NCBI RefSeq assembly: GCF_011492945.1
Contig: NZ_CP045119.1
Location: forward strand, 2,666,001 to 2,730,000
Direction: 5' to 3'
DNA length: 64,000 nucleotides
Origin: Rubrobacter tropicus
GTDB taxonomy: Bacteria; Actinomycetota; Rubrobacteria; Rubrobacterales; Rubrobacteraceae
Part shown: piece after piece, positions 5,937-55,322 of the stretch
Position numbering within the stretch: the first letter of the stretch is position 1
Layout: every line of letters begins with the position of its first letter
Made by a program: the position numbers and the translations under genes
Notes under the pieces: model-generated
What the model was told of the DNA's origin: nothing
Database searches by the model: none
Seen by the model: only the letters and a program-made list of their open reading frames with translations

Positions 5937-5986
5937 GGTCGTTACCCCCGTTCGTCTCTCTTACCAGTACGACCCGTGCAAATCCA

Positions 5987-14214: not shown

Positions 14215-14240
14215 GGTCTACCTCCTCTCTCGTCTCGGAC

Positions 14241-16565: not shown

Positions 16566-16594
16566 CGCTATTTGCCCTTTCCCCAGGGGTTGTG

Positions 16595-18787: not shown

Positions 18788-19894
18788 TTGGTCACGGCGG
18801 CGAGTGGGTCGAGGGTCGGCACGGAGGGTCAGGACCGTTACCGGGTATCCGTGGAGGAGTACAAGGCGTTCAGGCAGCAGGGTTTCCTCGTGGTTCGGGG
18901 GCTCCTCTCTAGAGCGGAGGTCTCGGAATTGAGGGAGCACACGGAGCTCTTAATGGAGGGGCGGCTGCCGGAGCAGACGCGGACCATGGCCGAGAGGGAC
19001 CCGGGGACCGACACGGGCACGACGGGCCAGTTGCTCGAGGCGCCGCCCGGGCACCTTTCGCCCGAGGAGAAGGCCCAGTACTTCTTGCGGGTCCACATGC
19101 TGCACAGGAAGCTGGAGTTGCACGAACGGTACATGCTCCACCCGCGGGTGCTCGACGTGCTCGAAGCATTGATCGGGCCGGACGTGCTGGCGCTCCAGAC
19201 GATGCTCTTTCTCAAACCGCCCGGCAAGCCGGGGCAGGGCTGGCACCAGGACTCGTACTACATCCCGACCCACCCGGACACCCTCTGCGGCGCGTGGTTC
19301 GCCGTCGACGACGCGGACGAGATCAACGGCGCCATGTGGATGGCCTCGGGCAGCCAGCACGAGCCCGTCTATCCGCCCAAGGAGGGCTACGGCCACGGCG
19401 ACGAGGACCTGATCGGCATCGAGCGGATAAGCGGCGCCAGCGACCCCGACGACGCCCGCAACGACCTCAGCAGGATCGCGGACCGCTACCCGCAACTACT
19501 GGCGCCCGTGGAGGCCGGCGACGTGGTCTTTTTCGGCGGCCACGTCCTGCACAGGAGCAAGAAGAATTTCAGCGACGACCGTTTCCGCCGCGCCTTCGTC
19601 GGCCACTACTGCAACGCCCGCTCCTTCACCCAGTGGGGCGCGGACCACGGCGACTCGGACCCGCACGCGGCATCCACCGTGGACGACAAGACCGGCATGA
19701 CCAACGGCTCCCACATCCTCGCCCGCGGCGACACACACCTCCCCTTCGCGAAACCCGCCTTCGGCACCCCCTGCGCCGCCCTCCTGCCCGAAGAGGAACG
19801 CCGCCGGGAGAGCCGCTTCGCCGCCGCCATGATGGCCGACATGGACACGGGCGACATGGGCGTAATGCCGAGCGATCCCGAGATCGAACACTAG
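18788..19894 (+). CDS. Phytanoyl-CoA dioxygenase (PhyH) family protein
   Basis: This 368-residue PhyH protein starts at TTG 18788, 6 nt after AAAGGAG. The iron motif HxD is in GWHQDSYYI near residue 155 and the distal histidine/arginine in VLHRSKKNFSDDRFRRAF near residue 255. It is longer than the other two PhyH proteins in the window because of a C-terminal extension with GDTHLPFAKPAFGTPCAALL. The substrate is unknown. Its position behind an AraC gene and an AraC-type direct repeat suggests induction by a sugar or related compound. Confidence 0.88.
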   Translation: MVTAASGSRVGTEGQDRYRVSVEEYKAFRQQGFLVVRGLLSRAEVSELREHTELLMEGRLPEQTRTMAERDPGTDTGTTGQLLEAPPGHLSPEEKAQYFLRVHMLHRKLELHERYMLHPRVLDVLEALIGPDVLALQTMLFLKPPGKPGQGWHQDSYYIPTHPDTLCGAWFAVDDADEINGAMWMASGSQHEPVYPPKEGYGHGDEDLIGIERISGASDPDDARNDLSRIADRYPQLLAPVEAGDVVFFGGHVLHRSKKNFSDDRFRRAFVGHYCNARSFTQWGADHGDSDPHAASTVDDKTGMTNGSHILARGDTHLPFAKPAFGTPCAALLPEEERRRESRFAAAMMADMDTGDMGVMPSDPEIEH

Positions 19895-32383: not shown

Positions 32384-32866
32384 TTGTCTTACCACGCGGG
32401 AAATGAAGGGTACTCGGTATCGTGGGTCGACCTGATCGTCGAGTACACGGCCGGGTTCGCCTTTGGCCTCTTCATCTTCCAGTCGCTCTTCATGAAGGAC
32501 ATGGCCGGAGGCTCCTACCTCGGGGCCGTCAAGAACTCCTTCATGCCCGAGTGGCTCTCGATGAACATGATGGCGGCCGGGATGTTCCCGGTGATGATCT
32601 TCCTGATGATGGGCCGCGACATGCGGGCCATGGAGCCCACCGAACCCCTCTTCTGGGCCGTGATGGCCTTGGGCGTGATCGTCGGCTTTTTTGTCGCGTA
32701 CCCGGTCAACGTCTGGATGGTCTCCAGGAACCTCAAGCACGGGTTGATGCATGTACCCCCTGCCGGGGAGATCACCCACCACGTCGAGCCATCTCCCAAC
32801 GGAGCAATGCCGTCTCGGCACGCAACGATGATCCGTGCCGGCACCGACGGACACGAAGGAGCGTGA
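32384..32866 (+). pseudogene. 5'-truncated DUF4396 membrane protein
   Basis: The open frame gives 160 residues starting at a TTG with YHAGNEGYSVSWVDLIVEYT. This corresponds to the C-terminal DUF4396 domain; the N-terminal membrane part usually present before the YNVSWVDL-like block is missing and not found in any frame upstream. Segments FAFGLFIFQSLFM, MMAAGMFPVMIFLM and AVMALGVIVGFFVAYPVNVW are hydrophobic. It ends 2 nt before the start of a broken multicopper oxidase. It could still be translated, but it is shorter than the family, so I call it a remnant. Confidence 0.55.
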
Positions 32867-32868
32867 TT

Positions 32869-33389
32869 ATGGTGCAAGAACATCTCACAGGGACGGGGCG
32901 AGAGCACGCCGGTATTCACCACGAGATGAAGCCGAACGTAACGCGCCCCCAACTCGTCGTGGTCACGGTCCTGACCGTGTTGGCGCTGGTCCTCAGCGTT
33001 GCGATCCCGGCCCAGTTCGTCAACCTCTCTTTGAGCGCCGAGGACGTGGGCGGCGCCATCATGCCCCCGGCATGGTAATGGCCCGCGACACTCCCGGAGC
33101 CGCCATGCGCGAGATGGCCGCCGTGGACCCGGACGAGGTCTCCTACACGGCCCCCGCCGACGCCCGCGGCGACCAGACTCTGGAGCCCAGGACCGGGGGC
33201 GCAACGAAGGTCTTCGACCTCACGGTTTCCGTGATCGACTGGAACATCCTGCCCGGCGAGCAGGTCCAGGCCTACGCTTTCAACCGCCAGGTGCCCGGGC
33301 CGCGCATCCGGGTGACCGAGGGAGACCGCGTACGTGTCAACGTGAAGCGAGCCCGGGACCGTAGTCAGCACCCTTCGAGGAGCACATAG
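32869..33389 (+). pseudogene. Multicopper oxidase remnant, frameshifted and 3'-truncated
   Basis: ATG 32869 follows AAGGAG and encodes a membrane-anchored N-terminus PQLVVVTVLTVLALVLSVAI. The frame stops at TAA 33078 after MPPAW. One added G near 33069 restores MPPGMVMARDTPGAAMREMA, and the frame continues through VFDLTVSVIDWNILPGEQVQ and FNRQVPGPRIRVTEGDRVRV, the first cupredoxin domain of a nitrite-reductase/laccase-like oxidase. The match ends at about 33350 and the copper-binding HWHG region is absent. The protein cannot be functional. Confidence 0.75.
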
Positions 33390-33445: not shown

Positions 33446-34201
33446 CTAATCCCTGCTCAACCGTTGCATGGCTTTGAGGCTGATCTCGACGTTCTCCATC
33501 GCATCCCTCGGGTTGTCCTGCTCCGCCACGAACCACTCGACGTCGACCTCGTCGGCCGTTTTGACGAGATCAGGCCACGGCATGGTGCCTTCGCCGACGG
33601 GGAGATCAGAGCGGGTGTCGTCCGGGGCCATGTCTTTGAGGTGGACGAGGGAGACGCGGTCGCCCACGTCGCGCAGGACGGCCTCGGGGTCCGAGCCGCC
33701 GTACTTGATCCAGTACAGGTCGAGCTCGAAGTGGACGAGGTCCGGGTCGGTCTCCCGCACGAGGAGCTCCCACATCGTGGTCCCGCCGAGGCGGGCGAAC
33801 TCGAAGTCGTGGTTGTGATAGGAGAAGGTCAAGCCTTCCGCGCGGCAAAGCTCGCCCCAGCGGTTGAAGTCTTCGGCGAGGCGGGAGACCGAATCCGCGT
33901 CGGGGCGGCGTTCGGGCGGGGCCATCGGGACTGTGGCGTGGGAGGAGCCGATGGCGTGCATGTCGGCCACAACGGAGGCGGGGTCCGAGTCCCAGGCGTC
34001 GATCGGGACGTGGGCGCCCGAGGCGCGGAGGCCGAGGTCGTCCATCACGCGGCGCAGCTCCCGCGGCGTGAGGCCGCCGAAGCCTGCCGGCTCGACGGCG
34101 CTGTAGCCGATATCGGCCAGCCGGCGCAGGGTGCCTGGCATGTCCCGGGCCGTGTGCTCGCGGACCGTGTAGAGCTGGAGCGATATCTGGTCTCTCCTCA
34201 T
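33446..34201 (-). CDS. Sugar phosphate isomerase/epimerase (TIM barrel)
   Basis: This 251-residue protein belongs to the AP-endonuclease-2/xylose-isomerase-like TIM-barrel family. Blocks seen are [16 protein letters not shown] at the start, [17 protein letters not shown] near residue 130 (metal-ligand region) and [13 protein letters not shown] near residue 165, then VHLKDM near residue 195 and VAEQDNP near residue 225, which supply the remaining metal ligands. Its ATG overlaps the Gfo/Idh stop by 4 nt, so the two are coupled. Relatives next to Gfo/Idh dehydrogenases act as isomerases, epimerases or lyases on 3-keto sugars; that role is inferred here. Confidence 0.87.
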
Positions 34202-35337
34202 GCGGTACCCCCAAAAACCTTCTCCCCCGCCGGCAGCGGCTCCGGACGCTCGAACGCGCTCTTCACCTCAACGTGCCGGCCATTCTCAGAAGAATCGAGG
34301 AAAGCGTGTATGACGTCCAGGACGTGACCGCCGAGCTCGCCGCTGGCGCGGTGCTTTCTGCCGGAACGAAGGGCCTGGGCCATGTCCGCGAGCCCGAGCC
34401 CCCGGCTGTCCCTGGTATAAGGATGCGTGAGCGGCACGTCCGTCCAGGAGTCCTCGCCGGAGCGCCAGACGCGCACGGGGCCGCCGAAGGTGTTCGGGTC
34501 CGGGACGCTCAACGTTCCCTCGGTGCCGTAGATGTCGATTCGGGAGTGCTCCTCGGACCAGACGTCGAAGCTGGTGACGAGCGTGCCGACGGCGCCGCCC
34601 TCGAAGTCCATCACGCCGGCGACGTGGGTTGGCGTGTTCACCGTGATGGTAGTCCCCGAAAGCGGCTGGCTCGTGATCCGGCGCTCCGGGAAGGTGGCCC
34701 GCGCGGAGCCCGTAACACGCCGTACCGGACCGAGGAGGGTCGTGAGCGCGGTCAGGTAGTAGGGGCCCATGTCGAACATAGGTCCGGCCCCGGGTTGGTA
34801 GAAGAAGTCCGGGTTGGGGTGCCAGTCCTCGGGACCGTGGGTCATCATGACCGCGGTCGTGGCGACGGGCTCGCCGATTATGCCCTCGTCCATCACCTTG
34901 CGGCAGGTCTGGAGGCCCCCGCCGAGGAACGTGTCGGGGGCGCAGCCGATCAGGAGCCCCCTCTCGGTCGCGACCTCGAGCATCCTCAGCCCGTCCTCGC
35001 GGCCCACGGCGAGCGGCTTCTCCGTGTAGACGTGCTTGCCGGCCTCCAGCGCCGCCAGCGAGACCTCCGCGTGGACAGCGGGGACCGTCAGGTTCAGCAC
35101 GACCTCGACCTCGGGGTCCGCGAGCAACTCCCCGGGGCTACAGGCCTTAGGCACGCCGTACTCCCGCGCCTGCTCCTCGGCCCGCTCCACCAAAAGGTCC
35201 GCGCAGGCGACGATCTCCAAATCGTCGAACGCCGCCCCGTTTTGCAGGTAGATGCCGCTGATCTTGCCGGCACCCATAACGCCAATCTTTACGGCTCCAT
35301 TCTCGATGATGGCTCCTCCCTTCGGCCGTCGCAGCAC
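34198..35337 (-). CDS. Gfo/Idh/MocA family dehydrogenase, start uncertain
   Basis: This NAD(P)-dependent oxidoreductase has the Rossmann loop [17 protein letters not shown] and the family motif YTEKPLAV near residue 100. The C-terminal domain contains [12 protein letters not shown] near residue 190. The start is unusual: a strong AAGGGAGGAG at about 35312-35321 is followed in frame only by ATC codons (35305-35310), the nearest ATG (35300) is out of frame, and the first standard in-frame codon is GTG 35337 with no ribosome site. I list the longest form. Either ATC is used, or one base is missing near 35292 after an ATGGAGCCG start. It is coupled to the downstream isomerase. Confidence 0.85.
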
Positions 35338-35557
35338 GCTGGCTGCGCCAGCTTGTCAGCCCGCTCCGGCTTCGCCTCCGCTCTCAGCACGCTTCGGCCC
35401 GTCAGCTTCTTGCCGCGCAGAGCCCGACCGGGCAGCGCCATCCGCGACGGTTCGGCTGTCGCTTGGCGTGACGGACACAGACAACTGGCTGACGGGCTGA
35501 AAGCGGAGCCCTGCAAAGCAGGGCGAAGCGTGCGCGACGACCGAAGGGAGGAGCCCG
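35338..35557. repeat. Family-B repeat-filled gap inside the catabolic cluster
   Basis: The 220-nt gap is filled by family-B units: CAGCTTGTCAGCCCGCTCC, CTCAGCACGCTTCGGCCCGTCAGC on one side and CTGGCTGACGGGCTGAAAGCGGAG on the other, forming imperfect long inverted repeats. A short pair GGAGCCCTGCAAAGCAGGGCGAAGC lies at about 35507-35532. It separates the ThuA gene from the downstream dehydrogenase. Confidence 0.5.
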
Positions 35558-36202
35558 CTAGCGGCTTGCCCACAGCATTCCTCGCTCGACTATCGTCTTT
35601 GCTTCGGGTACTTCGAAGTCTTTGGCCACGTGGCCGAGGGAGGAGTAGAAGACGCGTCCCTTGCCCCACCGGCGTTTCCAGACTACGGGGATGACCGCTC
35701 CTTCTATCCAGGGGGTGTGCTCGCCCGAGAAGGTGGTGGTGGCGAGGACTTTGTTCGAGGGGTCCACGTGCATGTAGTACTGCTCGGAGTGCATCTTGAA
35801 GTCCTCGAGGCCCTCGGTAATTGGGTCTTCGTGGTCCGCGATGTTGACCTCGTAGTCGATGATGTCGCCCGGGTGGGCGACCCACTGGCCTCCTACCATG
35901 AACTGGTAGTCGATGTTCTCCCGGAACGAGTCGGCCATGCCGCCGTGCCAGCCGGCGAGGCCGGTTCCGGCTTCGACGGCGACGATCAGGCCCTGGGCCT
36001 GATCGGCGGTTATGGTACCCATGGTCCAGATCGGGACTATCAGGTCCAGGGAGCGCATTTTTTCTTCGTCGAGGTAGGAGTCGAGGGTCGTCGAGATCTC
36101 GGCTTCGTAGCCGTTCTCTTCGAGGAAGGGGGCGAAGATCCGGGCGCACTTCTCGGGCTCGTGGCCCTCCCAACCGCCGCAGACGAAGAGCGCCTTTTTC
36201 AC
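35558..36202 (-). CDS. ThuA-domain protein
   Basis: This 214-residue protein has the ThuA fold, related to class I glutamine amidotransferases: [19 protein letters not shown] at the start, [19 protein letters not shown] near residue 80, [16 protein letters not shown] near residue 135 and a C-terminal [18 protein letters not shown] with the characteristic histidine. The catalytic cysteine of true amidotransferases is absent. ThuA of rhizobia takes part in trehalose use with the Gfo/Idh dehydrogenase ThuB. Its GTG overlaps the upstream Gfo/Idh stop (GTGTGA), so the pair is coupled, as in thuAB. Confidence 0.88.
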
Positions 36203-37308
36203 ACGGCCTCTTCTTCGGCGACCTCGCGCAGGGAGACCTCCCGGTTTTCGAGGGCCGAGGCGTAGCAGGCGTCGATTATGCGGGCCCGGTCGAGGCCGTC
36301 GTCGCCGTTCTGCCCCTCCCAGGCGCCGGCCCGGATGGTCTCGACGAAGCGGCGGACCACGGCGAAGTGCCCTTCGCGGGGTTGGATCTCGGGCGTCACC
36401 ACGGCCGGGACGCCGGCGACGTCGGTGAAGATCCGGACGGTGTCGGCCGTGCCGTAGTTCTTGACCTTCATCTCGGCCCCCCCTTCGGTCCCGTAGAGGG
36501 TGACCCCGAAGTCGTCGCTCGACTCCCTGTAGGCAGCCCAGCCGGCCTCCAGGTTGAGCGTCGCCCCACCCGAGAGTCGTATAAACGCCGTCGCCAGGTC
36601 CTCGACCTCGTATGGGTCCTCGCCCTGCATGAGCCCGAAGTCCGCCCGGCCGCCCCTGCCGCGGGGCCCGAGCTCGGCGTAGGTGGCGCAGCTCACGGTC
36701 TCCACCTCGGGATCGCCCATCAGGAAGAGGGCCATATCGACCATGTGGACGCCGAGGTCTATGAGCGGGCCGCCGCCGGCCATCTCCTTGCTGGTAAACC
36801 AGCCGCCCATGCCGGGGATGCCGTTGCGGCGCATCCAGGTCGCCTTGGCGTGGTAGATCCTGCCCAGGTTCCCCTCCTCGACGTGCCGCTTGAGCGCCTG
36901 CACGTCCCCCCGCTCCCGCTGTGTAAAAGCAATATGAACCGCCCTGTCGGCCTCCCTGGCGGCCCGCACGATCCCTTCGGCCTCGGCCCCCGTGCGCGCG
37001 AGCGGCTTCTCGCAGAGCACGTGCTTGCCACTCTTGAGCGCCGCGATGGCGATGGGCGCGTGCAAATGGTTCGGAGCCCCGATGCCGATGGCGTTGAGGT
37101 CTTCGCGGGCGACGAGGTCCTCCCAGTTCGTGTAAAGGTTCGGAACCCCATACTGCCCGCCAAGCTCCTTCAGCCGCTCCTCCTCCAGCCCGGCCAGCGC
37201 CACGGCCTCGACGTTCGGCATCTTCACGAAGTTCTTCAGGTGCTGCCCGCCGGCATAACCAAGCCCGACCACCCCAACGCGCAAGGGTTTCGTATCCGAG
37301 TTCTGCAA
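36199..37308 (-). CDS. Gfo/Idh/MocA family dehydrogenase
   Basis: This 369-residue dehydrogenase starts at TTG 37308 after AAGGAGG. The N-terminal Rossmann loop is [19 protein letters not shown] and the catalytic lysine motif is LCEKPLAR near residue 98. The second domain contains [20 protein letters not shown] near residue 180, with histidine and aspartate typical of sugar dehydrogenases. It is coupled to a ThuA protein and sits in a run of five paralogous dehydrogenases, so a 3-oxidation of a glycoside is a plausible role. The sugar is unknown. Confidence 0.9.
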
Positions 37309-37324
37309 AGTGTCCTCCTTTAGT

Positions 37325-37437
37325 AGGTTTCAGGTTTCAGGTCGCCTCCTTCGGAGGCTCTCAGGTTTCAGGGCTGCGACACCGGGAACCCATAACGTCA
37401 ATCACCCCTGAAGCCTGATGCCTGTAGCCTGAAACCT
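37325..37437. repeat. Family-A intergenic inverted repeat with inner hairpin
   Basis: The left arm AGGTTTCAGGTTTCAGG and a second TCAGGTTTCAGG pair with the right arm CCTGAAGCCTGATGCCTGTAGCCTGAAACCT (37408-37438). Inside is a perfect hairpin GCCTCC-TTC-GGAGGC at 37344-37358. The element fills nearly the whole gap between the ThuA stop and the Shine-Dalgarno site of the Gfo/Idh gene downstream on the minus strand. Confidence 0.65.
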
Positions 37438-38148
37438 CTATCCCAGCGGCTCCGTGTTGCCGTAGACCGGCGCCGCGCCCTTCGTCGGGGCGGCCCAGCG
37501 GGCGGCGTTCTCGATGACGCGCAGGACGTCCGGGTTGTGGTACGAGGGGTTCTCCTCGTGGCCGGGGCGGAAGTAGAAGATCCTGCCCGAGCCGCGCCTG
37601 TAGCAGAGGCCGCTGCGGAAGACCTCCCCGCCGCCGAACCAGCTCACGAAGACGAGCTCGTCCGGCTGCGGCACGTCGAAGTGCTCGCCGTACATCTCCT
37701 CTTCGAGCTCTATGTACTCGCCGATGCCCTCTGCTATGGGGTGGCCCGGCGCCACGACCCAGAGGCGCTCCGTGTCGTCGTGGCGCCACTTCAGATCGCA
37801 GGTGGTTCCCATGAGCTTTTTGAAGATCTTCGAGAAGTGGCCGGAGTGGAGCACGATCAGGCCCATCCCCCCAAGCACCCGCTCGTGGACCCGCTCGACG
37901 GTCTCGTCGGAGACCTCGTCGTGGGCTATGTGACCCCACCACAAGAGCACGTCCGTCGAGCCGAGGATCTCCTCCGTTAGCCCGTGCTCGGGCTCGTCGA
38001 GGGTCGCTGTGCGGACGTCGAAGCCGCCCTCCTTGAGCGCGGCGCCGAGGGTGGCGTGGATGCCCTCGGGGTAGATCTTCGCGACCTCGTCGTTGTTCCT
38101 CTCGTGCCTGAACTCGTTCCAGACCGTTACCCGCAAGCTCTCCGCCAA
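37438..38148 (-). CDS. ThuA-domain protein
   Basis: This second, divergent ThuA-like protein has 236 residues and starts at TTG 38148, directly after the TAG of the upstream Gfo/Idh gene. It contains [14 protein letters not shown] at the start, [18 protein letters not shown] near residue 65, [20 protein letters not shown] near residue 90, and a C-terminal [18 protein letters not shown]. The histidine-rich motifs are those of the trehalose-utilization ThuA group. It is in an isomerase-dehydrogenase-ThuA run (39315-40316, 38149-39315, 37438-38148), suggesting one pathway. Confidence 0.88.
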
Positions 38149-39315
38149 CTAGATCCCCCCTACTTCTGGTCTCGTCCATCCGCCACCCTCGGCGCTCCGC
38201 TCCACGGCGTCTAGCACAGCCTGGACACGATAGGCGTCCTCGAAGGTCGGCGCCGGGCTCTTCCCCGCCTTTATACCGTCCATGAGGTCCTTCATGGTGT
38301 GCACGAACGTGTGCTCGTAGCCGATGATGTGCCCCGGCGGCCACCACGCCCCGACGTAGGGGTGCCCGGGCTCCGTCACGTTGACGGTCCTGAAACCCTG
38401 CACGTCCGCGTCGTCGTCCACGAAGAAGACGTCGAGCTCGTTCATCCGCTCCATGTCGAAGGCGACGCTGCCCTTGGAGCCGTTGATCTCGAACCCGTTC
38501 TGGTTTCTGCGCCCCGCCGCGAACCGCGTGGCCTCGAAGGTCCCAATCGCCCCGTTCTCGAAACGCGCCAGAAACGCCGCGGCGTCATCGACCGTCACCT
38601 CTCCGGTCTCGACGCCCCCGCTCGCCGAGAGGCCACCGCCCGCGCCCGCCTCTTCGAGAGGGCGCTCCTTGATGAACGTCTCCATCATGCCGACGACCTC
38701 CGAGACGTCGCCGACGAGGAAACGGGCGAGGTCGACGCTGTGGGCCGCGATGTCGCCGAGGGCGCCAGATCCCGCGAGCTCTTTTTGCAAGCGCCAGATC
38801 AGGGGGAACTGGGGGTCCATTATGAAGTCCTGCAGGTAAGTCGAACGCCAGTGCCGGATGGTCCCGAGCCTGCCCTCGTCTATGAGTTTTTTGGCTAGCT
38901 GCACCGCGGGGGCGCGCCTGTAGTTGAAGCAGACCGTGTTCACGGTCCCCGCGTCGCGCGCGGCAGCGAGCATCTCCTTTGCCTCGTCGAGCGTGTTTGC
39001 GAGAGGCTTCTCGCAGATCACGTGTTTGCCGGCTTCCAGCGCCGCGATCACGACGTCGCGGTGCGTGTTCCCCGGCGTCGACACGTCCACGAGACCTATG
39101 TCGTCCCGATCTATGAGCCTGCGGTAGTCCGTCTCGTAGGATTCCCAGCCTAAAGTGTTCGCGGCGTCCCTGACGCCGGCCTCGTCCCGGCCGCAGATGG
39201 CAGTCATGCGTGGGGCCGGGTCGACGTCGAAGAAGCGGGGGAGTTGGCGGTAGGCGTTCGAGTGGGTGCGGCCCATAAACTTGTAGCCGACGAGGCCGAC
39301 CCCGATCTCGGCCAT
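38149..39315 (-). CDS. Gfo/Idh/MocA family dehydrogenase
   Basis: This 388-residue dehydrogenase has the Rossmann segment IGVGLVGYKFMGRTHSNAYR and the lysine motif ICEKPLAN near residue 100. The C-terminal domain has ALGDIAAHSVDLARFLVG near residue 185, a loop of about 20 glycine/serine-rich residues near 220, and HPYVGAWWPPGHIIGYEH near residue 330. I chose ATG 39315 behind GGGGAGA; GTG 39318 is one codon upstream. It overlaps the isomerase stop and precedes a ThuA gene, so all three are coupled. Substrate is unknown. Confidence 0.9.
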   Translation of the reverse strand: MAEIGVGLVGYKFMGRTHSNAYRQLPRFFDVDPAPRMTAICGRDEAGVRDAANTLGWESYETDYRRLIDRDDIGLVDVSTPGNTHRDVVIAALEAGKHVICEKPLANTLDEAKEMLAAARDAGTVNTVCFNYRRAPAVQLAKKLIDEGRLGTIRHWRSTYLQDFIMDPQFPLIWRLQKELAGSGALGDIAAHSVDLARFLVGDVSEVVGMMETFIKERPLEEAGAGGGLSASGGVETGEVTVDDAAAFLARFENGAIGTFEATRFAAGRRNQNGFEINGSKGSVAFDMERMNELDVFFVDDDADVQGFRTVNVTEPGHPYVGAWWPPGHIIGYEHTFVHTMKDLMDGIKAGKSPAPTFEDAYRVQAVLDAVERSAEGGGWTRPEVGGI

Positions 39316-40316
39316 CACTCTCCCCTCGCGAAAGCGGCGTCGAAGGCCTGGCTAGACGGTGCGAAGTCCGTGCGCCTGGCGAACGCCAGCGCGTCCTGCG
39401 CCCCGTACTCGCGGTCCATCCCCGAGTCCTCCCACTCTATCGAGAGCGGCCCCTCGTAGCCGATCCTGTTCAGGGCCCTCACGCACTCCTCCAGGTCGAC
39501 GTCCCCGTGCCCGGGCGAGACGAAGTCCCAGCCGCGCCCGGCCTCGCCGAAGTCCAGGTGGGAGCCCAGGATGCTCCTGCGGCCGTCGAGGCGCTTGCGG
39601 GAGTCCTTGATGTGGAAGTGGTAGATGCGCTCGGCGAAGTCCTCTATAAACGCGGCGGAGTCCAGGAACTGGTGGGCGAAGTGGCTCGGGTCGAAGTTGA
39701 TGCCGAAGCCCGTTCGGTTGTCTATTGCGTCGAGGGCTTTTCTGGTGGTTACGAAGTCGTAGGCGATCTCCGTCGGGTGGACTTCGAGGCCCCACTTCAC
39801 GCCTTCTTCGTCGAAGACGTCGATTATCGGGTTCCAGCGTTCGGCGAAGTCCTCGTAGCCGCGCTCTATCTCGGCCGGGTCGTTCGGCGGGAACGAGTAG
39901 AGTTTGCTCCAGATAGAAGATCCCGTAAAGCCGTTTACCTGCGTGACCCCGAACTTCGCCGCGGCCCTCGCGGTGTCCTTTATCTTCTCGGCGGCGCGCT
40001 GCCTCACCCCTTCAGGGTCCCCGTCGCCCCAGACGTCGGGGGGGACCGTGGCCTTGTGGCGGTCATCTATAGGGTCGCAGACCGCCTGGCCTACGAGGTG
40101 GTTGGAGATCGCCCAGCAGTTCAGGCCGTTCCGGCGCAGGATCTCCCACCGCCCCTCGACGTAGCCGTCTTCTGAGAGCGCCCGGTCCACGTCGAAGTGG
40201 TCGCCCCAGCAGGCGAGCTCCAGCCCGTCGAAGCCCCACTCGCCGCATTTTTTCGCCAGCTCTTCGAGCGGCAGGTCGGCCCACTGGCCGGTGAAGAGCG
40301 TTACCGGTCTACCCAC
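39315..40316 (-). CDS. Sugar phosphate isomerase/epimerase (TIM barrel)
   Basis: This 333-residue xylose-isomerase-like TIM-barrel protein starts at GTG 40316, 7 nt after GGAGG. It shows [19 protein letters not shown] at the start, [16 protein letters not shown] near residue 38, [17 protein letters not shown] near residue 190, [17 protein letters not shown] near residue 215 and IYHFHIKDS near residue 245, which together give the usual glutamate, histidine and aspartate metal ligands. It precedes a Gfo/Idh dehydrogenase and ThuA in one coupled unit. An epimerase, isomerase or lyase acting on the keto-sugar product is likely. Confidence 0.9.
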
Positions 40317-40381
40317 GATACAACCTCCGATTCCCCTGTGCCGTGCCCCGCCGGACGCCGCGCCCGGCCCTGCTCCATAGC

Positions 40382-41410
40382 TTAACGCCCCGCCGGCCGC
40401 GCTTCTCGCCGCGCCCCGACGATCATTTGCTCTATGTCCACCGTTTCGCTTTTCTCTACCGAACGCACGCAGCCCAGCGTGACCGCGAGGCTCCTGACGT
40501 TGTCCGCGGCGGACGTCTCGGGGACCTCGCCGGTCTCGACGGCGGCCCGCAGCGCCTGAAGCGTCGCCGCCCGCTCCGTGAACTCGGGCTCCGGGGTTGC
40601 CAGCGCGCGGGGCGCCTCGCCCCAGCGTTCCAACAGGACCTCGCCGACGCCCCGGTCGTCCCTGTCTCCGCGCCACAGCAGGCGGCCCTCCTCGCCGACC
40701 ACCTCCCAATCCCCGTTCCAACTAGTTTCGGGCTCTCGGGTGGCCCAGTCGCCCTCGTAGAGAACGGGTACGCCGCCTTCGAGGTCGAGCAGCGCCGAGA
40801 CGGCCGGGTGGTGGGCGAAGGGGCTGTCGGGGACGCGCCGGCCGCGGGCGTGGACGCGCGCGACCTCCCGACCGGTGGCCGCCCGGATCAGGTCGAAGTG
40901 GTGAATCGACATGTCCAGCACGTAAGGATGACGCATCGAGTACCGGAAGTCGTCTGTCCCGAAGAGTGTCCTCGTGTCGCGCCGGCAGCTTATCTTGATG
41001 GAGACGAGGTCCCCGATCCCCCCTTCCCCCACGGCCCGCCGCAAGGCTCGGAAAGGACCGTTGTAGCGGTAGTTCTGGCTGACCATGAGGAAGCGCCCCG
41101 CCTCCTCGGCGACCTCTATCAGGTCGAAGGCGCCGGCGAGGTCGGTCGCGAGCGGCTTCTCTACGAGCACGTGCCGGCCCGCCTCTAGCGAGGCCTTCGC
41201 GACCGCGTGATGGGTTCCCGGCGGGGTCGCGACGAGGACCGCGTCGCACGCCACCTCCGCGAGCGCCGCCTCCACACTCTCGTAAACCGGTGTTCCGGCA
41301 ACTTCCCTGGTCTTCGGGGCCGGGTCGGCGAGGGCGGCGAGCTCGACGTTCGGGGCCTCGCGGACAACGTCGGCCCAGCTCTGGCCCCAGATCCCGAGCC
41401 CCGCCTGCAC
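40382..41410 (-). CDS. Gfo/Idh/MocA family dehydrogenase
   Basis: This 342-residue dehydrogenase starts at GTG 41410, which overlaps the TAG of the upstream aldo/keto reductase by one base. The Rossmann segment is [15 protein letters not shown], the lysine motif LVEKPLAT near residue 95, and the substrate-domain block [19 protein letters not shown] near residue 180. In-frame sequence upstream of the GTG lies inside the neighbouring gene and is not coding. The GIWGQ nucleotide loop departs from the usual GxGxxG by a tryptophan. Confidence 0.88.
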
Positions 41411-42411
41411 TACGCGGAGGATGGCCGAGGTCCTTCCCCGGAGGCATCCGTACCGTCGTCCCCTTCGAGCCACGCGAGCTCTTCCGGCGTCAACCCCACC
41501 CCGGCGGCCTCGACGTTCGCCCGGAACTCCTCCCCGCTGTTGCAGCCGACGAGGGCGAAGACCTCTACCGGCTGGTTCAGGACGTAAGCGAGTGCCACCT
41601 GCGGCACGGAGAGGCCGCGTTCTTCGGCCAGAACCCTGGCGCGGTCGAGGCGCCTGAAGTTGTCCTCGTGGCAATACGTCTCGACGCACAGGCGGTCGAA
41701 GTAGCCGTCGAAGGAGCCGAGGTTCTCGCGCGTGAAGCGCCCGGAGAAGAAGCCGCCGGCCAGGCTCGACCAGGTAAGGAGCGGCATCCCTTCTTCCGCG
41801 TACCACCGGCGGTCGGCCTCCCCCGCCTCGCCGCTGACGCTCACGCAACCGGGCCAGGGTTCCTTCGCCTGGACCGCGAGGCTCAGGTTGGGACTACTGG
41901 CGACGAACGGGCGCAGGCCCCTCTCCTCCGCGTAGGCGTTTGCCTCGCGGATGCGTCCTGCGGACCAGTTCGAGCCGCCGAAGGCGTTGATGCGGCCCGC
42001 CTCGGCGTGCTCGTTCAGGGTCTCCACTATGGGGCCGACGGGGACGGAGGGGTCGTCGCGGTGGAGCAGGTAGAGGTCTACGTGGTCGAAGCCGAAGCGG
42101 GCCAGGGAGTCGTGGAGGTCGGCGGTTATGTCGAAGGGGGTCACGCGGTTCCGGTCCCGGCTGTGGTGGGCGCCCTTGCCGATCACGACGACGTCGTCAC
42201 GCACGCCCCGACCGCGGACCCACCGACCAAAGACGCGCTCGGCCTCGCCGCTCCCGTACTGGTGGGCCGTGTCGAAGGCGGTGCCGCCCGCCTCGAAAAC
42301 CTCGTCGAGCAGGGTGAAGGCCCTCTCTTCCTCGTCGGCGCGGACCATGGCGGTCCCCTGGACGACGCGGGCTACGGGTTTCCGGACCCCGGGTACCTGG
42401 CCGTAGATCAC
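41410..42411 (-). CDS. Aldo/keto reductase
   Basis: This 333-residue (beta/alpha)8 NADPH-dependent reductase starts at GTG 42411, 7 nt after GAGGAGG and overlapping the Gfo/Idh stop (GTGA). The catalytic tetrad is seen as aspartate and tyrosine in FDTAHQYGSGEAERV, lysine in VIGKGAHH, and histidine in YLLHRDDPS. A C-terminal GGCNSGEEFRANVEAAG-like NADPH loop is present as LVGCNSGEEFRANVE. It lies between two Gfo/Idh dehydrogenases and probably reduces or oxidises a sugar aldehyde in the same pathway. Confidence 0.9.
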   Translation of the reverse strand: MIYGQVPGVRKPVARVVQGTAMVRADEEERAFTLLDEVFEAGGTAFDTAHQYGSGEAERVFGRWVRGRGVRDDVVVIGKGAHHSRDRNRVTPFDITADLHDSLARFGFDHVDLYLLHRDDPSVPVGPIVETLNEHAEAGRINAFGGSNWSAGRIREANAYAEERGLRPFVASSPNLSLAVQAKEPWPGCVSVSGEAGEADRRWYAEEGMPLLTWSSLAGGFFSGRFTRENLGSFDGYFDRLCVETYCHEDNFRRLDRARVLAEERGLSVPQVALAYVLNQPVEVFALVGCNSGEEFRANVEAAGVGLTPEELAWLEGDDGTDASGEGPRPSSA

Positions 42412-43400
42412 GCCCCGGCCTCCTCGCCGGGGTACCGGAGTCCCCACGCCTCCCGTATTCGGTCCATGGCGTCGAGCACGGAGATAGTCTCGTCAAGCGG
42501 CATGACTTCGCTCTCCTTTTTCCCGGCCCTCAAGCAACGCATCACCTCGGCGGCCTCGTAGACGAAGCCGTTTTCCTCCGTCGGCTCCCGGACTAGAACG
42601 TCCCCCGTGCCCGGCTTCGAGATCGTCATCGCCTCGGGCCTCCACCAGGGACTGTGTATCCTGAGGTATCCCTCGGTGCCGAAGACCGTCGCCTCGTGCG
42701 GCGTGGCGGTGCGGGTGCCGGCGGTTACGGAAGAGAGTCGTCCGCCGCCGTGGTCCAACGCGGCCGCGAACTGCTCGTCCACCCCGGTCTCCCCGAGGTG
42801 CGACAGGCCCGTTCCCCGGACCGGTGGGCCGAGCGCCATCGAGGCGAAGGAGACGCAGTAGACGCCGACATCCAGCATGGCTCCCCCGCCGAGATTCGGG
42901 TCGAAGAGCCGGGAGGCGGGGTCGAAGGGCGCCCTGAAGCCGAAGTCGACCGTAAGCATCCGCGGCTCCCCGATGGCGCCGCCGGCGAGGACCTTGCGCA
43001 GCCGTTCCATCAGGGGGAAGAAGCGGGTCCACATGCCCTCCATCAAGAACAGGCCGCGTCTCCTGGCGAGTTCCACCACCCGTCTGGCCTCGGCGGCGTT
43101 GACGGTGAACGGTTTCTCGCAGACGACGGCCTTGCCCTCGTTCAGGCAGAGCTCCACGTTTTCGGCGTGGAAGGGGTGGGGCGTGGCGACGTAGACGACG
43201 TCCACGTCGGGGTCCGCGGCGAGGTCCTCGTAGCTTCCGTGGGCGCGGAAGAAGCCGTTGGCCCTGGCGAAGCGGTCGGCAGAATCCTGGGAGCGGGAGC
43301 CTACGGCCAGCGTCTCGGCGTCCGGAAGGGCGGCCAGGGCCTCGGAGAACCGGGAGGCGATGGAGCCAGCCCCGATTATCCCCCAGCGGACCCTGCTCAC
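42408..43400 (-). CDS. Gfo/Idh/MocA family dehydrogenase
   Basis: This 330-residue dehydrogenase is the first gene of the large minus-strand cluster. It starts at GTG 43400. The Rossmann loop is WGIIGAGSIASRFSEAL, the lysine motif VCEKPFTV near residue 95, and the second domain contains GGGAMLDVGVYCVSFASMAL near residue 170. It belongs to the branch close to trans-dihydrodiol and xylose dehydrogenases. A good promoter lies about 110-145 nt upstream. Confidence 0.9.
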   Translation of the reverse strand: MSRVRWGIIGAGSIASRFSEALAALPDAETLAVGSRSQDSADRFARANGFFRAHGSYEDLAADPDVDVVYVATPHPFHAENVELCLNEGKAVVCEKPFTVNAAEARRVVELARRRGLFLMEGMWTRFFPLMERLRKVLAGGAIGEPRMLTVDFGFRAPFDPASRLFDPNLGGGAMLDVGVYCVSFASMALGPPVRGTGLSHLGETGVDEQFAAALDHGGGRLSSVTAGTRTATPHEATVFGTEGYLRIHSPWWRPEAMTISKPGTGDVLVREPTEENGFVYEAAEVMRCLRAGKKESEVMPLDETISVLDAMDRIREAWGLRYPGEEAGA

Positions 43401-43544: not shown

Positions 43545-43616
43545 ACCGGAGCGGTTGCGTCGGCCACCTTTGCGCTGTTGAATAGGTTGGGGACAGACCG
43601 ATCACAGGAGGGGAAA

Positions 43617-44624
43617 GTGGAGTACCGGAACCTCGGCAGGACGGGCGTGCGGGTAAGCGAGCTCTGCCTCGGGTGCATGATGTTCGGCGGCAGGACCGGC
43701 GAGGAGGACTCGTTCGGGATCATCGACCGGGCCATAGACGCCGGCATCAACTTCGTAGACACGGCCAACGTCTACAGCACGGGTGCCAGCGAGGAGGTGG
43801 TCGGCAAGGCGCTGAGGAAGAACGGCAAGCGCGACTCCGTCGTGCTCGCCACCAAGGTCCACGGGCCCATGGGCGACGACCCGAACGCCAGGGGCAACCA
43901 TCGCAGGCACATCATCGAGCAGTGCGAGGCTTCGCTTCGGCGGCTCCAGGTCGAGCATTTCGACCTGTACCAGATCCACCGCCCCGACTCCCACATCCCC
44001 ATAGACGAGACGCTGCGCGCCCTGGACGACCTGATCCGGGCCGGCAAGGTCCGCTACGCGGGCACGAGCACCTACGCGGCGTGGCAACTGGTGGAAGCCC
44101 TCTGGGCGGCAAAGGAGCTCGGCCTCAACCGCTTCGTCTGCGAGCAGCCCCCGTACCACCTGCTCGACCGGCGCATCGAGCGCGAGCTGGTGCCCTTCGC
44201 CCAGACCTACGGGACGGCCCTGATCCCCTGGTCCCCCCTCGCGGGCGGCTTCCTGACGGGCAAGTACTCCCGCGACGAGAGCCAGTCCCCCGAGGACAGC
44301 CGCTACGGCCTCGAACCCCGCCGCCTCGGCCGCAACCACTTCACGGATGAGGCGTTCGACGTCCTCGAAACCGTCCAGGCCATAGCCGAGGAGAAAGGTT
44401 GCAACCCGGGCCAGCTCGCCCTCGCCTGGTGCAAGGACAAACCCGGCGTCACGAGCGCCATCATCGGCCCGCGCACCATGGAGCAACTCGAAGACAACCT
44501 CGGCGCCCTGGAGGTCTCCCTGGACGAAGGCGACCACGAACGCCTCGACGCCGTCGCCCCGCCGGGAAGGGCCACCGTCCCCTACTACGACGCCGACTTC
44601 GGCCCGCACCCGTTTCGCTGGTAG
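43617..44624 (+). CDS. Aldo/keto reductase
   Basis: This 335-residue reductase starts at GTG 43617, directly behind AGGAGGGGAAA. The in-frame stretch from 43578 precedes the Shine-Dalgarno site and is not coding. It begins VEYRNLGRTGVRVSELCLG, the AKR signature. The tetrad is seen in FVDTANVYSTGASEEV, LATKVHG and LYQIHRPDSH. The AKR11/AKR12-like layout with LIPWSPLAGGFLTGKY near residue 205 fits an NADPH-dependent sugar aldehyde reductase or voltage-channel-beta-like enzyme. It is divergent from the Gfo/Idh cluster. Confidence 0.91.
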   Translation: MEYRNLGRTGVRVSELCLGCMMFGGRTGEEDSFGIIDRAIDAGINFVDTANVYSTGASEEVVGKALRKNGKRDSVVLATKVHGPMGDDPNARGNHRRHIIEQCEASLRRLQVEHFDLYQIHRPDSHIPIDETLRALDDLIRAGKVRYAGTSTYAAWQLVEALWAAKELGLNRFVCEQPPYHLLDRRIERELVPFAQTYGTALIPWSPLAGGFLTGKYSRDESQSPEDSRYGLEPRRLGRNHFTDEAFDVLETVQAIAEEKGCNPGQLALAWCKDKPGVTSAIIGPRTMEQLEDNLGALEVSLDEGDHERLDAVAPPGRATVPYYDADFGPHPFRW

Positions 44625-45589: not shown

Positions 45590-46999
45590 TCAGGGCGTTG
45601 GGCCGTTCTCGGCTGTTCTGCACCCCGGTCCGGCGCAGGTTCGCAGGGCTTCGAGGGCGTCCTTGAGCGCCTGGGGGGCTGCCTCGGGCCTCGACTCCAG
45701 CTCGTGGGGGTCCGTGCGGAGGTCGTAGTACTCCTGCTCGCCGCTGGCGTAACGGATGTACTTCTCCCCTTCCTGGCTCAGGACGCCCGCGTAGTCCGGC
45801 ATGCCGAAGCCGTTGCCGTCGGGCGTGCGGCCTTCCAAAAGTACGTACCGGCGCCAGGTGGCGGGGTCCGTCCGCGCGTCCAGCAGGGCCTCCATGGGCC
45901 TGCCGTCGGTCCAGGGCTGTTGCGGTACGTTCGCCCAGGCCAGGAACGTCGGGGCGAGGTCGGTGTTGAGGACGAGGCGGTCGTCCTCGACGCCCTGACG
46001 GATGCCGGGGCCGCGCACGATCATCGGGAAGTTGGTGTCCGTCTCGTACGGCGTCAGCTTCCCGGTCGAGAGGCGATGTTCGCCCATGTGGTAGCCGTTG
46101 TCCGTCCAGAGGACGATGTACGTGTCGTTCAACTCGTTGTGGTTCTGCAGGATGCCCACGATCTCCGCGATGCTCTCGTCCACCGTCTGGAGCGCGCGCA
46201 GCCGGTCGCGGTAGTCCCGGGCGTACTCCAGATCTTTTGCTTCGGAGACGCGAGGTTTGGACCTGACGTACGCCGGCTTGTCCGAGACGTCTGCCTCGTC
46301 GTAGGCGGGGGGGCGGGGGAACGGCGCGTTCGCGAAGGCGCCCTCGTAGGCCGACTGATGGTCGTAGGGCGCGTGCGGCGCGAAGAAAGAGGCCTGCAGA
46401 AAGAACGGCCTGTGGGTGGACGCCTTCAGGCGGACGTAGTCCGAGATCTCCCTCTTTCGCACCGAGTCCATGTGCGTCCCGGAGCCGTACTCTCGGATTT
46501 CCCCGTCGTCGTTTACCGTGCGGGAGTTGCCGCCACCCTGGCTGAACCACCTGTCCCAGCCGGGCGGGACGTATTTCTGGTCGTGGCCGTTGAGGTACTT
46601 GCCGATAAGGGCCGTGTCGTAGCCGGCCCGGTCGAGCCAGACGGCAACGGTGGAGCGATCGAGACCCCGGTTGCGGAAGTAGCCCGAGCCGTTCTCGTTG
46701 GCGAAGAGGCCCGTGTTGTGCGGGTACTGCCCCCTCAGGATGGAGGCGCGGCTGGGGCAACAGCGCGGGAAGGCGAATCGGGCGTTCGTCAGCTTCGTGC
46801 CCCGGTTCAGGAGGTGGGCACGTACCCTGTTCATGCTCCAGAGCGTATCCGCGCTCTGGTCGTCGGTCATTATGAGGATGATGTTGGGGCGCTGCACCGC
46901 GTCCGCGTCGGGGGAAACGGCCACCGTCAGAACGAGGGCGCAGAATACCGCAACGGCCACCGAGGTCAGCAGGCGGATCGCTTTTTTGGTCATTGGCAT
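45590..46999 (-). CDS. Secreted sulfatase
   Basis: This protein of about 469 residues is a type I sulfatase of the alkaline phosphatase superfamily. Residues 7-34 are a signal peptide (AIRLLTSVAVAVFCALVLTV then SPDADA). The metal site begins with IMTDDQ (D46, D47). The formylglycine site is C81 in CCPSRASILRG, matching CxPSR. Further blocks are GKYLNGHDQKYVPPGWDRW and DNGYHMGEHRLSTGKLTPYE. It hydrolyses sulfate esters outside the cell, probably on polysaccharides. The start region holds a 14-bp tandem duplication, so ATG 46999 and ATG 46993 are both possible. A formylglycine-generating enzyme is not in the window. Confidence 0.92.
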   Translation of the reverse strand: MPMTKKAIRLLTSVAVAVFCALVLTVAVSPDADAVQRPNIILIMTDDQSADTLWSMNRVRAHLLNRGTKLTNARFAFPRCCPSRASILRGQYPHNTGLFANENGSGYFRNRGLDRSTVAVWLDRAGYDTALIGKYLNGHDQKYVPPGWDRWFSQGGGNSRTVNDDGEIREYGSGTHMDSVRKREISDYVRLKASTHRPFFLQASFFAPHAPYDHQSAYEGAFANAPFPRPPAYDEADVSDKPAYVRSKPRVSEAKDLEYARDYRDRLRALQTVDESIAEIVGILQNHNELNDTYIVLWTDNGYHMGEHRLSTGKLTPYETDTNFPMIVRGPGIRQGVEDDRLVLNTDLAPTFLAWANVPQQPWTDGRPMEALLDARTDPATWRRYVLLEGRTPDGNGFGMPDYAGVLSQEGEKYIRYASGEQEYYDLRTDPHELESRPEAAPQALKDALEALRTCAGPGCRTAENGPTP

Positions 47000-47075
47000 G
47001 TTGTCATTGGCATCGTCTCCCCAGAGTAACGCCAACTCGGCCGCATCCGGCCCCATCGGAGTGAGGGGGCCACTG

Positions 47076-48032
47076 TTATCGGGGGATCGCGGCCTCTATC
47101 TCGTCGATCTCGTCCTCAGAGAGGCGGAAGTTTGCGGCGCCGACGATGCCGTCTACCTGATCCGGCCTGCGGCCACCGACGATGGCGGCCGAGACAGCGG
47201 GATGCCCGAGGGTCCACGCTATCGCCACCTCGGCCGGGGACCGGTCGTGACGCCCGCCGACCTCGCGCAGCTTCTCGACGAGCTCCAGGTTCTGCGAGAG
47301 CTTCGGGTCGTTGAACTGCTCGTTGTTGCGCCGCCAGTCGTCCGAAGGCATGTTCTCGACCCGCTCGCGGGTCATCTTGCCCGTTAGCAGCCCGCTCGCC
47401 ATCGGCGAGTAGACGATGACGCCGACGTCGTTCTCCCCGGCGTAAGGCAGGATCTCGTCCTCGACCTCCCGCCTGAGCATGTTGTACGGCGGCTGCAACG
47501 TCTCGACCGGGGCGATGCCGTTCGCCCGCTCCATCTGCCGCGCATCGAAGTTCGAGACCCCGATGTGGCGAACCTTGCCCTCCTCCTTTAGCTCGGCCAG
47601 CGCCTGCCAGCCCTCCTCAACATCTTCGTCGGGGCGGGGCCAGTGGATCTGGTACAGGTCGATAACGTCCGTCTGCAACCGCCTGAGGCTGTCCTCGCAC
47701 TCCTTCTTCACGGAGTCTTTCTTGAGGACGTTAGAGACATTCCCACCCTCGTCCCAGACAAGCGAGCACTTGGTGAAGACGTAAGGCCTGTCGGCGTCCG
47801 AGAAGCCCTTCAACGCCTGCGCCACGAGCTCCTCCGAGTGGCCGAGGCCGTAGACGGCGGCCGTGTCGACCCAGTTGATCTCCGACTCGACGGCGCGCCT
47901 GATGGCCCCGACCGCCTCGTCGTCGTCCTGCGAGCCCCACGCGCCGGCCCAGCCGGTCCCGCCTATGGCCCACGCCCCGAAACCGACGGGCGTGATCTCC
48001 AGATCGGTCTTGCCGAAACGGACTTTGTGCAA
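47076..48032 (-). CDS. Aldo/keto reductase
   Basis: This 318-residue reductase starts at TTG 48032 after AAAGGA. The tetrad is seen in WVDTAAVYGLGHSEEL, FTKCSLVWDEGG and LYQIHWPRPDED. A C-terminal cofactor loop is VSAAIVGGRRPDQVDG. It is of the AKR11-like group acting on sugars or general aldehydes. A fragment of family-A repeat (AGGTTTCAGG at 48051-48060) abuts its Shine-Dalgarno region. It is followed on the same strand by the sulfatase gene after a 76-nt gap. Confidence 0.9.
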   Translation of the reverse strand: MHKVRFGKTDLEITPVGFGAWAIGGTGWAGAWGSQDDDEAVGAIRRAVESEINWVDTAAVYGLGHSEELVAQALKGFSDADRPYVFTKCSLVWDEGGNVSNVLKKDSVKKECEDSLRRLQTDVIDLYQIHWPRPDEDVEEGWQALAELKEEGKVRHIGVSNFDARQMERANGIAPVETLQPPYNMLRREVEDEILPYAGENDVGVIVYSPMASGLLTGKMTRERVENMPSDDWRRNNEQFNDPKLSQNLELVEKLREVGGRHDRSPAEVAIAWTLGHPAVSAAIVGGRRPDQVDGIVGAANFRLSEDEIDEIEAAIPR

Positions 48033-53954: not shown

Positions 53955-55322
53955 ATGATCTTGACCATTACCAACGAGCTTGCGCCCGCGACGGACCTCG
54001 GCTACCTGCTGCATAAGAACCCGGGGCGGGCGCAGGTGTTCGACCTGCCTTTCGGCAGGGCCCACGTGTTTTATCCGGAGAGTTCTCCGGAACGGTGTAC
54101 GGCGGCGCTGCTGTTGGAGGTCGACCCTGTCGGGTTGGTGCGGGGGCGGGGTAGCACGTTGGGGCAGTACGTGAACGACAGGCCTTACGCCGCATCTTCG
54201 TTTTTGAGCGTGGCGATCTCGCGGGTGTTCGGGTCGGCGCTCTCGGGGAAGAGCCGGGACCGGCCGGAGCTGGCGACGACGGCTTTGCCGCTTCGGGCCA
54301 GGCTCGCGGTAGTACCGTGCAGGAGCGGGGAGGACTTTCTGCGGCGGCTGTTCGAGCCGCTCGGGTATGAGGTTTCGGTAGAAGCCCACGCGTTGGATGA
54401 GACGGTCCCCGATTGGGGGGAGAGCCCGTATTTTACGGTCGAGATCTCGGGCCTGGTCAGGCTGCGGGACCTCTTGAGCCACCTGTACGTCCTCGTGCCC
54501 GTGCTGGACGACGACAAGCACTACTGGGTGGGCGACGACGAGGTCGAGAAACTCCTGCGCCGCGGCGAGGGATGGCTGACGGGCCACCCGGAGAAAGAGG
54601 CCATCACGGCCCGTTATCTCAAGCACCAGCGGAGCCTCGCCCGCGACGCCCTGGAGAGGCTCGTGGAAGACGAAGATCCCGAGGTCCACGATCGTGAAGA
54701 GGAGGCCGTGGAGGAGAAGGCGCGGCTCTCCGGTCAGCGCGTTGGAGCGGTGCTGGCCGCGCTCAAGGGCGCCGGGGCCCGGCGGGTGATCGACCTCGGG
54801 TGCGGGGAGGGGAAGCTTTTGCGCGCGCTCTTCGAGGACAGGGGCTTCGGGGAGATCGTCGGGATGGACGTGTCGCACCGCCTGCTCGAGGCCGCCCGTC
54901 GCAGGCTGCGCCTGGACGAGTTGCCGGACAACCAGAGGGGGAGACTTGGTTTGTTCCAGGGTTCCCTCACCTACCGCGACGAACGCCTCTCCGGCTTCGA
55001 CGCCGCCACGCTCGTCGAGGTCGTAGAACACCTCGACCCGCACCGCCTGGCCGCCTTCGAGCGGGTGGTCTTCGAGTTTGCCCGCCCGCGTACCGTGGTC
55101 CTGACGACGCCGAACGCGGAATACAACCCCCTGTTCGAAGGGCTACCGGCAGGCGAGTTCCGCCACAGGGACCACAGCTTCGAATGGACCAGGGAAGAGT
55201 TCCGCGCCTGGGCCGGGGGCGTGTGCGGGCGTCACGGGTACGCCGTGCGGTTCGTGCCCGTCGGGCCAGAAGATCCCAGGCTCGGCGCCCCGACCCAGAT
55301 GGGGGTTTTCGAGGTTGCCTGA
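53955..55322 (+). CDS. hen1: 3' terminal RNA ribose 2'-O-methyltransferase Hen1
   Basis: This 455-residue protein matches bacterial Hen1. The N-terminal half (ILTITNELAPATDLGYLLHK and HVFYPESSPERCTAALLLEVD) is the Pnkp-activating domain. The C-terminal half is a SAM-dependent methyltransferase with VIDLGCGEGKLLRAL near residue 280, VVEHLDPHRLAAFE near residue 350 (the glutamate and histidine metal ligands) and FRHRDHSFEWTREEF near residue 400, with further metal histidines. With Pnkp it repairs cleaved RNAs such as ribotoxin-cut tRNAs and adds a 2'-O-methyl mark at the repaired end. Pnkp overlaps its 3' end by 8 nt. Confidence 0.95.
   Translation: MILTITNELAPATDLGYLLHKNPGRAQVFDLPFGRAHVFYPESSPERCTAALLLEVDPVGLVRGRGSTLGQYVNDRPYAASSFLSVAISRVFGSALSGKSRDRPELATTALPLRARLAVVPCRSGEDFLRRLFEPLGYEVSVEAHALDETVPDWGESPYFTVEISGLVRLRDLLSHLYVLVPVLDDDKHYWVGDDEVEKLLRRGEGWLTGHPEKEAITARYLKHQRSLARDALERLVEDEDPEVHDREEEAVEEKARLSGQRVGAVLAALKGAGARRVIDLGCGEGKLLRALFEDRGFGEIVGMDVSHRLLEAARRRLRLDELPDNQRGRLGLFQGSLTYRDERLSGFDAATLVEVVEHLDPHRLAAFERVVFEFARPRTVVLTTPNAEYNPLFEGLPAGEFRHRDHSFEWTREEFRAWAGGVCGRHGYAVRFVPVGPEDPRLGAPTQMGVFEVA

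Follow-up and report, generated by a model that had tools for sequence, protein, structure and literature searches.

Here we describe ten contiguous minus-strand genes at positions 33446-43400 of a 64,000-nt stretch of Rubrobacter tropicus DNA (contig NZ_CP045119.1, positions 2,666,001 to 2,730,000; hereafter the window). These genes quite probably form an operon that cleaves glycosidic bonds by oxidation, elimination, hydration and reduction, with a pair of ThuA proteins widening the substrate range. The proposal draws on the genes present, their homologies and conserved active sites, their synteny, and their linkage to genes for transport and for glycosidases. A first-pass annotation of the window had arrived at a 3-keto-glycoside reading of the cluster. 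This is upheld by eliminase and hydratase homologues with intact sites, Gfo/Idh proteins resembling 3-dehydrogenases, a gene order that is kept, and, in relatives, adjoining genes for glycosidases and transporters. As a whole, that earlier interpretation is partly supported.

All ten open reading frames (ORFs) are intact and encode five Gfo/Idh proteins, two ThuA proteins, two TIM barrels and one aldo-keto reductase (AKR), as had been read from the sequence at first pass. Each family assignment rests on reaching the Pfam gathering cut-off (Gfo/Idh for five, ThuA for two, AP_endonuc_2 for the two TIM barrels, and aldo-keto reductase for one). In the order of transcription, the genes are G5, AKR, G4, a hydratase-type TIM barrel, G3, ThuA1, G2, ThuA2, G1 and an eliminase-type TIM barrel, with intergenic gaps of -40, about 0, 65, -4, 0, 129, -4, 220 and -4 nt. 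The first description of the genes as nearly all overlapping or within 130 nt thus holds for eight gaps and fails for the one of 220 nt. A sigma-70-like promoter match (43544-43516) lies just upstream of G5; it is the sole match in 32.8-44.0 kb and is weak, as 0.6 would be expected there. Both ThuA genes of the 4.58-Mb genome are located in the operon, as are five of the 11 Gfo/Idh genes that score above the cut-off, and the clustering is therefore not a matter of chance. The hydratase-type gene is present in a single copy in the whole genome.

The first-pass annotation had called the two TIM barrels isomerases. Judged by their closest named structures and by the active-site residues kept, one is very probably an eliminase instead, and the other a hydratase. 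The protein encoded at 33446-34201 finds its best PDB match in 8bvk (119.5 bits), the structure of AtOGE, an O-glycoside beta-eliminase (OGE) of Agrobacterium tumefaciens. In AtOGE the metal ligands are His132, Asp163, His189 and Glu233, the catalytic residue is His134, and an alternative metal site comprises His66, Glu39 and Glu161 (PMC10628242). Upon alignment, every one of these residues, the alternative site included, is identical in the Rubrobacter protein, and the positions are nearly or fully invariant in 14 distant homologues. The protein encoded at 39315-40316, a homologue of AtHYD, matches 8ro4 with 134.5 bits and the uncharacterised 2zds with 466 bits; 8ro4 was deposited under the name 2-hydroxy-3-keto-glucal hydratase (HYD). 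Its residues E178, H180, D209, H212, H235, E294 and E296 are shared with 8ro4, and are retained by at least 97% of 32 distant homologues.

The same comparisons bear on whether the cluster serves inositol or cyclitol catabolism, where the Gfo/Idh proteins would be inositol dehydrogenases and the TIM barrels enzymes of the IolE/IolH/IolI type. All five Gfo/Idh proteins do match IolG, and both TIM barrels IolE, but the scores stay far below the equivalog cut-offs (at most 120 vs. 355 bits for IolG, and 48 vs. 290 bits for IolE), on which grounds the reading was rejected. Among solved structures, IolE is matched with only 21 bits by the eliminase homologue and 25 bits by the hydratase homologue, far below their scores to 8bvk and 8ro4. 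IolB, IolC and IolD are not found nearby, and it is glycosidases that adjoin the operon in relatives. An inositol pathway is thus very improbable.

Two of the Gfo/Idh proteins are probable glycoside 3-dehydrogenases, going by their nearest solved relatives. G3 (38149-39318), of the levoglucosan-dehydrogenase (LGDH) type, matches the uncharacterised 4h3v with 477 bits and LGDH (6a3f) with 357 bits. G2 (36199-37308), the neighbour of ThuA1, is closest to the C-glycoside 3-dehydrogenase DgpA (7xr9, 172.5 bits), followed by LGDH (139.6 bits). Levoglucosan, an anhydrosugar, could be considered the specific substrate of the operon, as the four enzyme types match those of its catabolism and G3 aligns over the whole LevoglcsnDh model of NCBIfam (E 1.9e-127). 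However, the score of 425.1 bits is below the family cut-off of 650, for which levoglucosan-specific membership was rejected; G3 is nearer to 4h3v than to LGDH; and the accessible parts of the papers on the lgd loci report no ThuA there (PMC7676230; PMC10066097). We consider this substrate, as the specific one, improbable.

The other Gfo/Idh proteins and the AKR are candidates for the reductive step. G5 (42408-43400) belongs to a dihydrodiol dehydrogenase/GFOR-like branch (best PDB match 2o48, 242 bits), holds a conserved place in the order, and is a candidate keto-sugar reductase. The AKR (41410-42447) is accessory, being present in some relatives and absent from others. G4 (40382-41410), whose start codon overlaps the AKR stop, is likewise accessory. 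For G1 (34198-35337) and G4, the solved relatives are all distant.

From these assignments we infer the following pathway, including its substrates, the direction of each dehydrogenase and the role of ThuA. G3, G2 or G1 would oxidise the C3 of the glycosyl unit with NAD+. The hydrogen at C2 being thereby acidified, the AtOGE-type enzyme could remove the aglycone by beta-elimination, leaving 2-hydroxy-3-keto-glucal or an epimer determined by the sugar. The AtHYD-type enzyme would then hydrate this product to the free 3-keto-sugar, and G5, G4, AKR or another Gfo/Idh protein would reduce it to the ordinary sugar with regeneration of NAD+. Each ThuA, paired with a Gfo/Idh protein, would most likely cleave, or assist on, those 3-keto-glycosides that are closed to the beta-specific OGE-type enzyme, such as alpha-glucosides.

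The gene order was followed in related genomes by tblastn of the ten proteins. The operon order is kept in L022, L024, L025, L026 and L027, and also on the shorter contigs of L023, L029, L031 and L033. The AKR is absent from L024, L026 and L027, and G4 from L024 and L027. L025 is without hydratase and G3 at the operon site, and hydratase genes are found on other contigs of that genome. The first-pass annotation had made its reading depend on conservation of gene order, which is maintained in at least five relatives. Since the order is kept, the cluster is a genuine operon under selection.

What adjoins the operon in relatives is also informative. ABC sugar transporters and genes of the glycoside hydrolase (GH) families GH1, GH2, GH4, GH42 or GH63-like are found there on the same strand. 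Downstream of the operon, L022 carries genes for a solute-binding protein, a pair of permeases and an MGH1/GH63-like glycosidase. The same position holds GH63-like and GH4 genes, a solute-binding protein, a pair of permeases and GH42 in L023; GH1, an AKR, a member of an epimerase family, GH2 and an ABC transporter in L025; and ABC genes in L026. For L027, which is of the same genus, a GH4 fragment and a solute-binding protein follow. [The fragment, at 13909-14709, comes directly after the operon, and its match covers only part of the C-terminal domain.] The core of ten genes is retained among relatives, but its glycosidase neighbours differ. With such neighbours, glycoside catabolism is the natural reading.

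In R. tropicus itself, no hydrolase or transporter lies inside the operon, as had been stated at first pass, and two sugar ABC transporters, two GH4 genes and one GH63/MGH1-like gene occupy 1.5-16.6 kb of the window. Genes homologous to the L022 block (69-82% identity) are found at 11.7-16.6 kb, about 17 kb from the operon. All are on the minus strand: the solute-binding protein (15234-16634; 70% identity to the homologue adjoining the operon in L022), two permeases (14241-15152 and 13303-14214; 80% and 82%, respectively) and the MGH1/GH63-like glycosidase (11727-13289; 69% to the glycosidase of the L022 linked block and to one in L023). At 1485-8733, an ABC sugar transporter, a PhyH-family gene and two GH4 genes occur in a row. 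As GH4 enzymes carry out redox-elimination in a single enzyme, both versions of the chemistry would be present in one window. Three PhyH-family (Fe/2-oxoglutarate dioxygenase-like) genes are interspersed in the carbohydrate region (5007-5936, 9922-10806 and 18788-19894), and such genes also adjoin the operon in L022.

Distant genomes indicate which of the genes travel together. Homologues of the hydratase and G3 are adjacent, without the remaining operon genes, in distant Actinomycetota. Homologues of ThuA2 (35558-36202) and G1 are adjacent in rhizobia, where the pair on pSymB has 59% and 51% identity to them, respectively, and where they are accompanied by an ABC transporter and by a regulator of the ROK or LacI type. 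They are also adjacent in the distant actinobacteria L162, L176, L178 and L179, L162 having a four-gene set, G3-hydratase-ThuA2-G1. ThuA1 is found with a Gfo/Idh gene in rhizobia and Deinococcus, and the partner differs by lineage. Co-conservation thus defines three units: the hydratase with the LGDH-type Gfo/Idh, ThuA1 with a Gfo/Idh, and ThuA2 with the downstream G1. The modules drawn at first (isomerase-Gfo/Idh-ThuA and Gfo/Idh-ThuA) had other boundaries, and ThuA2 had been paired with the upstream Gfo/Idh gene (36199-37308), which it overlaps by 4 nt; its co-conserved partner is G1 instead. The pSymB pair of Sinorhizobium meliloti (L165, 5871-7642) is a second, unnamed Gfo/Idh-ThuA pair, distinct from thuAB, and comes with a ROK regulator and an ABC transporter.

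That each module occurs alone elsewhere (HYD with an LGDH-type gene, ThuA2 with G1, and ThuA1 with Gfo/Idh in rhizobia and Deinococcus) is what would be expected if several unrelated pathways of two or three genes, of the thuAB-type for disaccharides, the LGDH type and the OGE type, were merely co-located and had no common intermediates. In relatives, however, the modules form a single operon whose order is fixed. Moreover, with one HYD-type gene in the genome and both ThuA genes in the cluster, a common hydratase and reductase is simpler. Co-location of independent pathways is therefore unlikely, and we prefer the single stepwise operon.

The place of ThuA in such a pathway merits closer attention. 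ThuA is common in bacteria and haloarchaea, and its name derives solely from a trehalose phenotype. By sequence, ThuA1 (37438-38148) is an orthologue of the rhizobial protein: it has 61% identity to ThuA of Rhizobium etli p42f (thuEFGKAB) and 59% to that of S. meliloti, and matches 1t0b in the PDB with 391 bits. Gfo/Idh genes flank it on both sides, G3 with 31% and G2 with 25% identity to ThuB. No PDB entry matches ThuA2 in sequence; its AlphaFold model (mean pLDDT, the predicted local distance difference test score, of 47.9, from a shallow alignment) was not used. Profile alignment of ThuA1 with ThuA2 (probability 94%) brings out common conserved residues, H101/H86, E151/E140, Y153/Y142 and G196-H197/G190-H191, which resemble an active or metal site shared by the two.

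A scan with ThuA1 found loci from Bacillota, Chloroflexota, haloarchaea, Actinomycetota and one Bacteroidetes metagenome-assembled genome, 66 of them distant loci with complete flanks. Gfo/Idh genes were counted within 6 kb: they are present at 45 of the 66, and all 78 flanking Gfo/Idh ORFs run in the same direction as ThuA. Of the 66 loci, 31 have HYD-type genes, and 14 of these also have an OGE-type gene; the other 17 are without one and have at least two Gfo/Idh genes. In L059, for example, the order is LacI regulator, ABC transporter, ThuA, Gfo, Gfo and HYD-type TIM barrel. To test the idea that ThuA replaces the eliminase, 20 loci anchored on HYD were picked regardless of ThuA. A ThuA-domain gene on the same strand was found in seven, an OGE-type gene in two and another TIM barrel in six; many had none of these.

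Trehalose, maltitol and the sucrose isomers are alpha-glucosides, and thuAB contains only one enzyme besides ThuA. By its title, the study of Ampomah in 2013 assigned to the thu operon the assimilation of these sugars via 3-keto derivatives (cited in PMC4765114). OGE, in contrast, requires a beta-glucoside if the leaving group is poor, as argued in PMC10628242. Because thuAB offers one other enzyme, OGE is limited to beta-linkages, and many clusters of ThuA, two Gfo/Idh and HYD exist without OGE, ThuA becomes a candidate for the cleavage. Taken together, these points suggest that ThuA carries out the bond breaking or helps with it, but they are no proof. A bolder version is possible but doubtful at present: ThuA might constitute a class of lyases or hydrolases that cleave 3-keto-glycosides and have no relationship to the TIM-barrel eliminases. 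It would fill the cleavage slot of a Gfo/Idh-ThuA-HYD-Gfo/Idh pathway widespread among Bacillota, Actinomycetota and rhizobia, with alpha-linked compounds as the probable substrates. A literature search found no reaction or mechanism for ThuA; Ampomah 2013, the LGDH structure paper and the text of Nasseri 2024 were outside its reach, so that a published mechanism may exist.

Several points weigh against the operon as proposed. The enzyme activities are predicted from homology, and although candidates for all pathway enzymes can be named, the exception is a uniquely assignable reductase: G1, G4, G5 and AKR are all candidates and none is singled out. As G3 falls below the levoglucosan-dehydrogenase cut-off, its substrate may be other than levoglucosan. 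The multiple dehydrogenases could mean multiple independent pathways, and in this genome the ABC genes are not adjacent to the operon. As to ThuA, many HYD and LGDH-type pairs in other actinobacteria have neither eliminase nor ThuA detected nearby. LgdB2 is reported to have partial bifunctionality and to be able to replace LgdB1 in part (PMC7676230). Given these lone HYD loci and such bifunctionality, absence of OGE does not force ThuA as the cleaving enzyme.

A few other features were seen around the operon. Upstream, a sulfatase gene (45590-47056) lies between aldo-keto reductase genes (43578-44624 and 47076-48032). Just past the 3' end, a plus-strand ORF (32835-33389) adjoins a DUF4396 gene, and its translation resembles, by eye only, a broken multicopper-oxidase N-terminus. 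At 53955-57870, a methyltransferase with a Hen1 N-terminal domain adjoins a Pnkp kinase-phosphatase-ligase, a bacterial RNA repair pair. Elsewhere in the genome there are two more Gfo/Idh and TIM-barrel clusters, at 457298-463610 and 3647407-3660584.

The stepwise 3-keto route cuts linkages beyond those of ordinary glycosidases and is under-annotated, its enzymes being labelled 'isomerase' or 'oxidoreductase'. The operon and its relatives put ThuA inside this route in several phyla, and the small enzyme set makes ThuA function testable. Nasseri et al. (Nature, 2024) reportedly described an oxidation-elimination-hydration pathway in gut bacteria, with exchangeable modules for many glycosides; the mechanism is alike and the source organisms differ. 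GH4 glycosidases share the redox-elimination chemistry, but there one enzyme of an unrelated family does every step.

Among the closest systems is the O-glycoside pathway of A. tumefaciens (AtOGE, AtHYD and a Gfo reductase; PMC10628242). The two have the operon layout in common, together with homologous eliminases and hydratases whose active sites are conserved and, as a candidate here, a Gfo/Idh reductase. There the first oxidation is by the flavoenzyme GlycDH, whereas here NAD-dependent Gfo/Idh proteins are the candidates, and that paper makes no mention of ThuA, of which there are two here. LgdA-B1-B2-C of Bacillus smithii, so far as the accessible parts of its descriptions go, is similar in Gfo/Idh oxidation, two TIM barrels and Gfo/Idh reduction (PMC7676230; PMC10066097); the present operon differs in a G3 under the cut-off, five Gfo/Idh proteins, two ThuA and one AKR. 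The C-glycoside systems (dgp/CGD) share the DgpA-type 3-dehydrogenase, G2. The ORF list and Pfam reveal no gene in the cluster for the small beta-subunit of their heterodimeric eliminase, and the sole eliminase homologue is of the OGE type. The rhizobial thuEFGKAB operon is similar in its ThuA, orthologous to ThuA1, and in the adjoining Gfo/Idh genes; in R. tropicus thuEFGK are not adjacent, ThuB is nearer to G3 than to the following gene, G2, and eliminase and hydratase genes are added. In sum, for levoglucosan, O-glucosides, C-glucosides and gut glycans the succession of oxidation, elimination, hydration and reduction is already in the literature, and 'undescribed', as the cluster was called at first pass, goes too far. 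The chemistry is known; the unusual feature is the presence of two ThuA genes.

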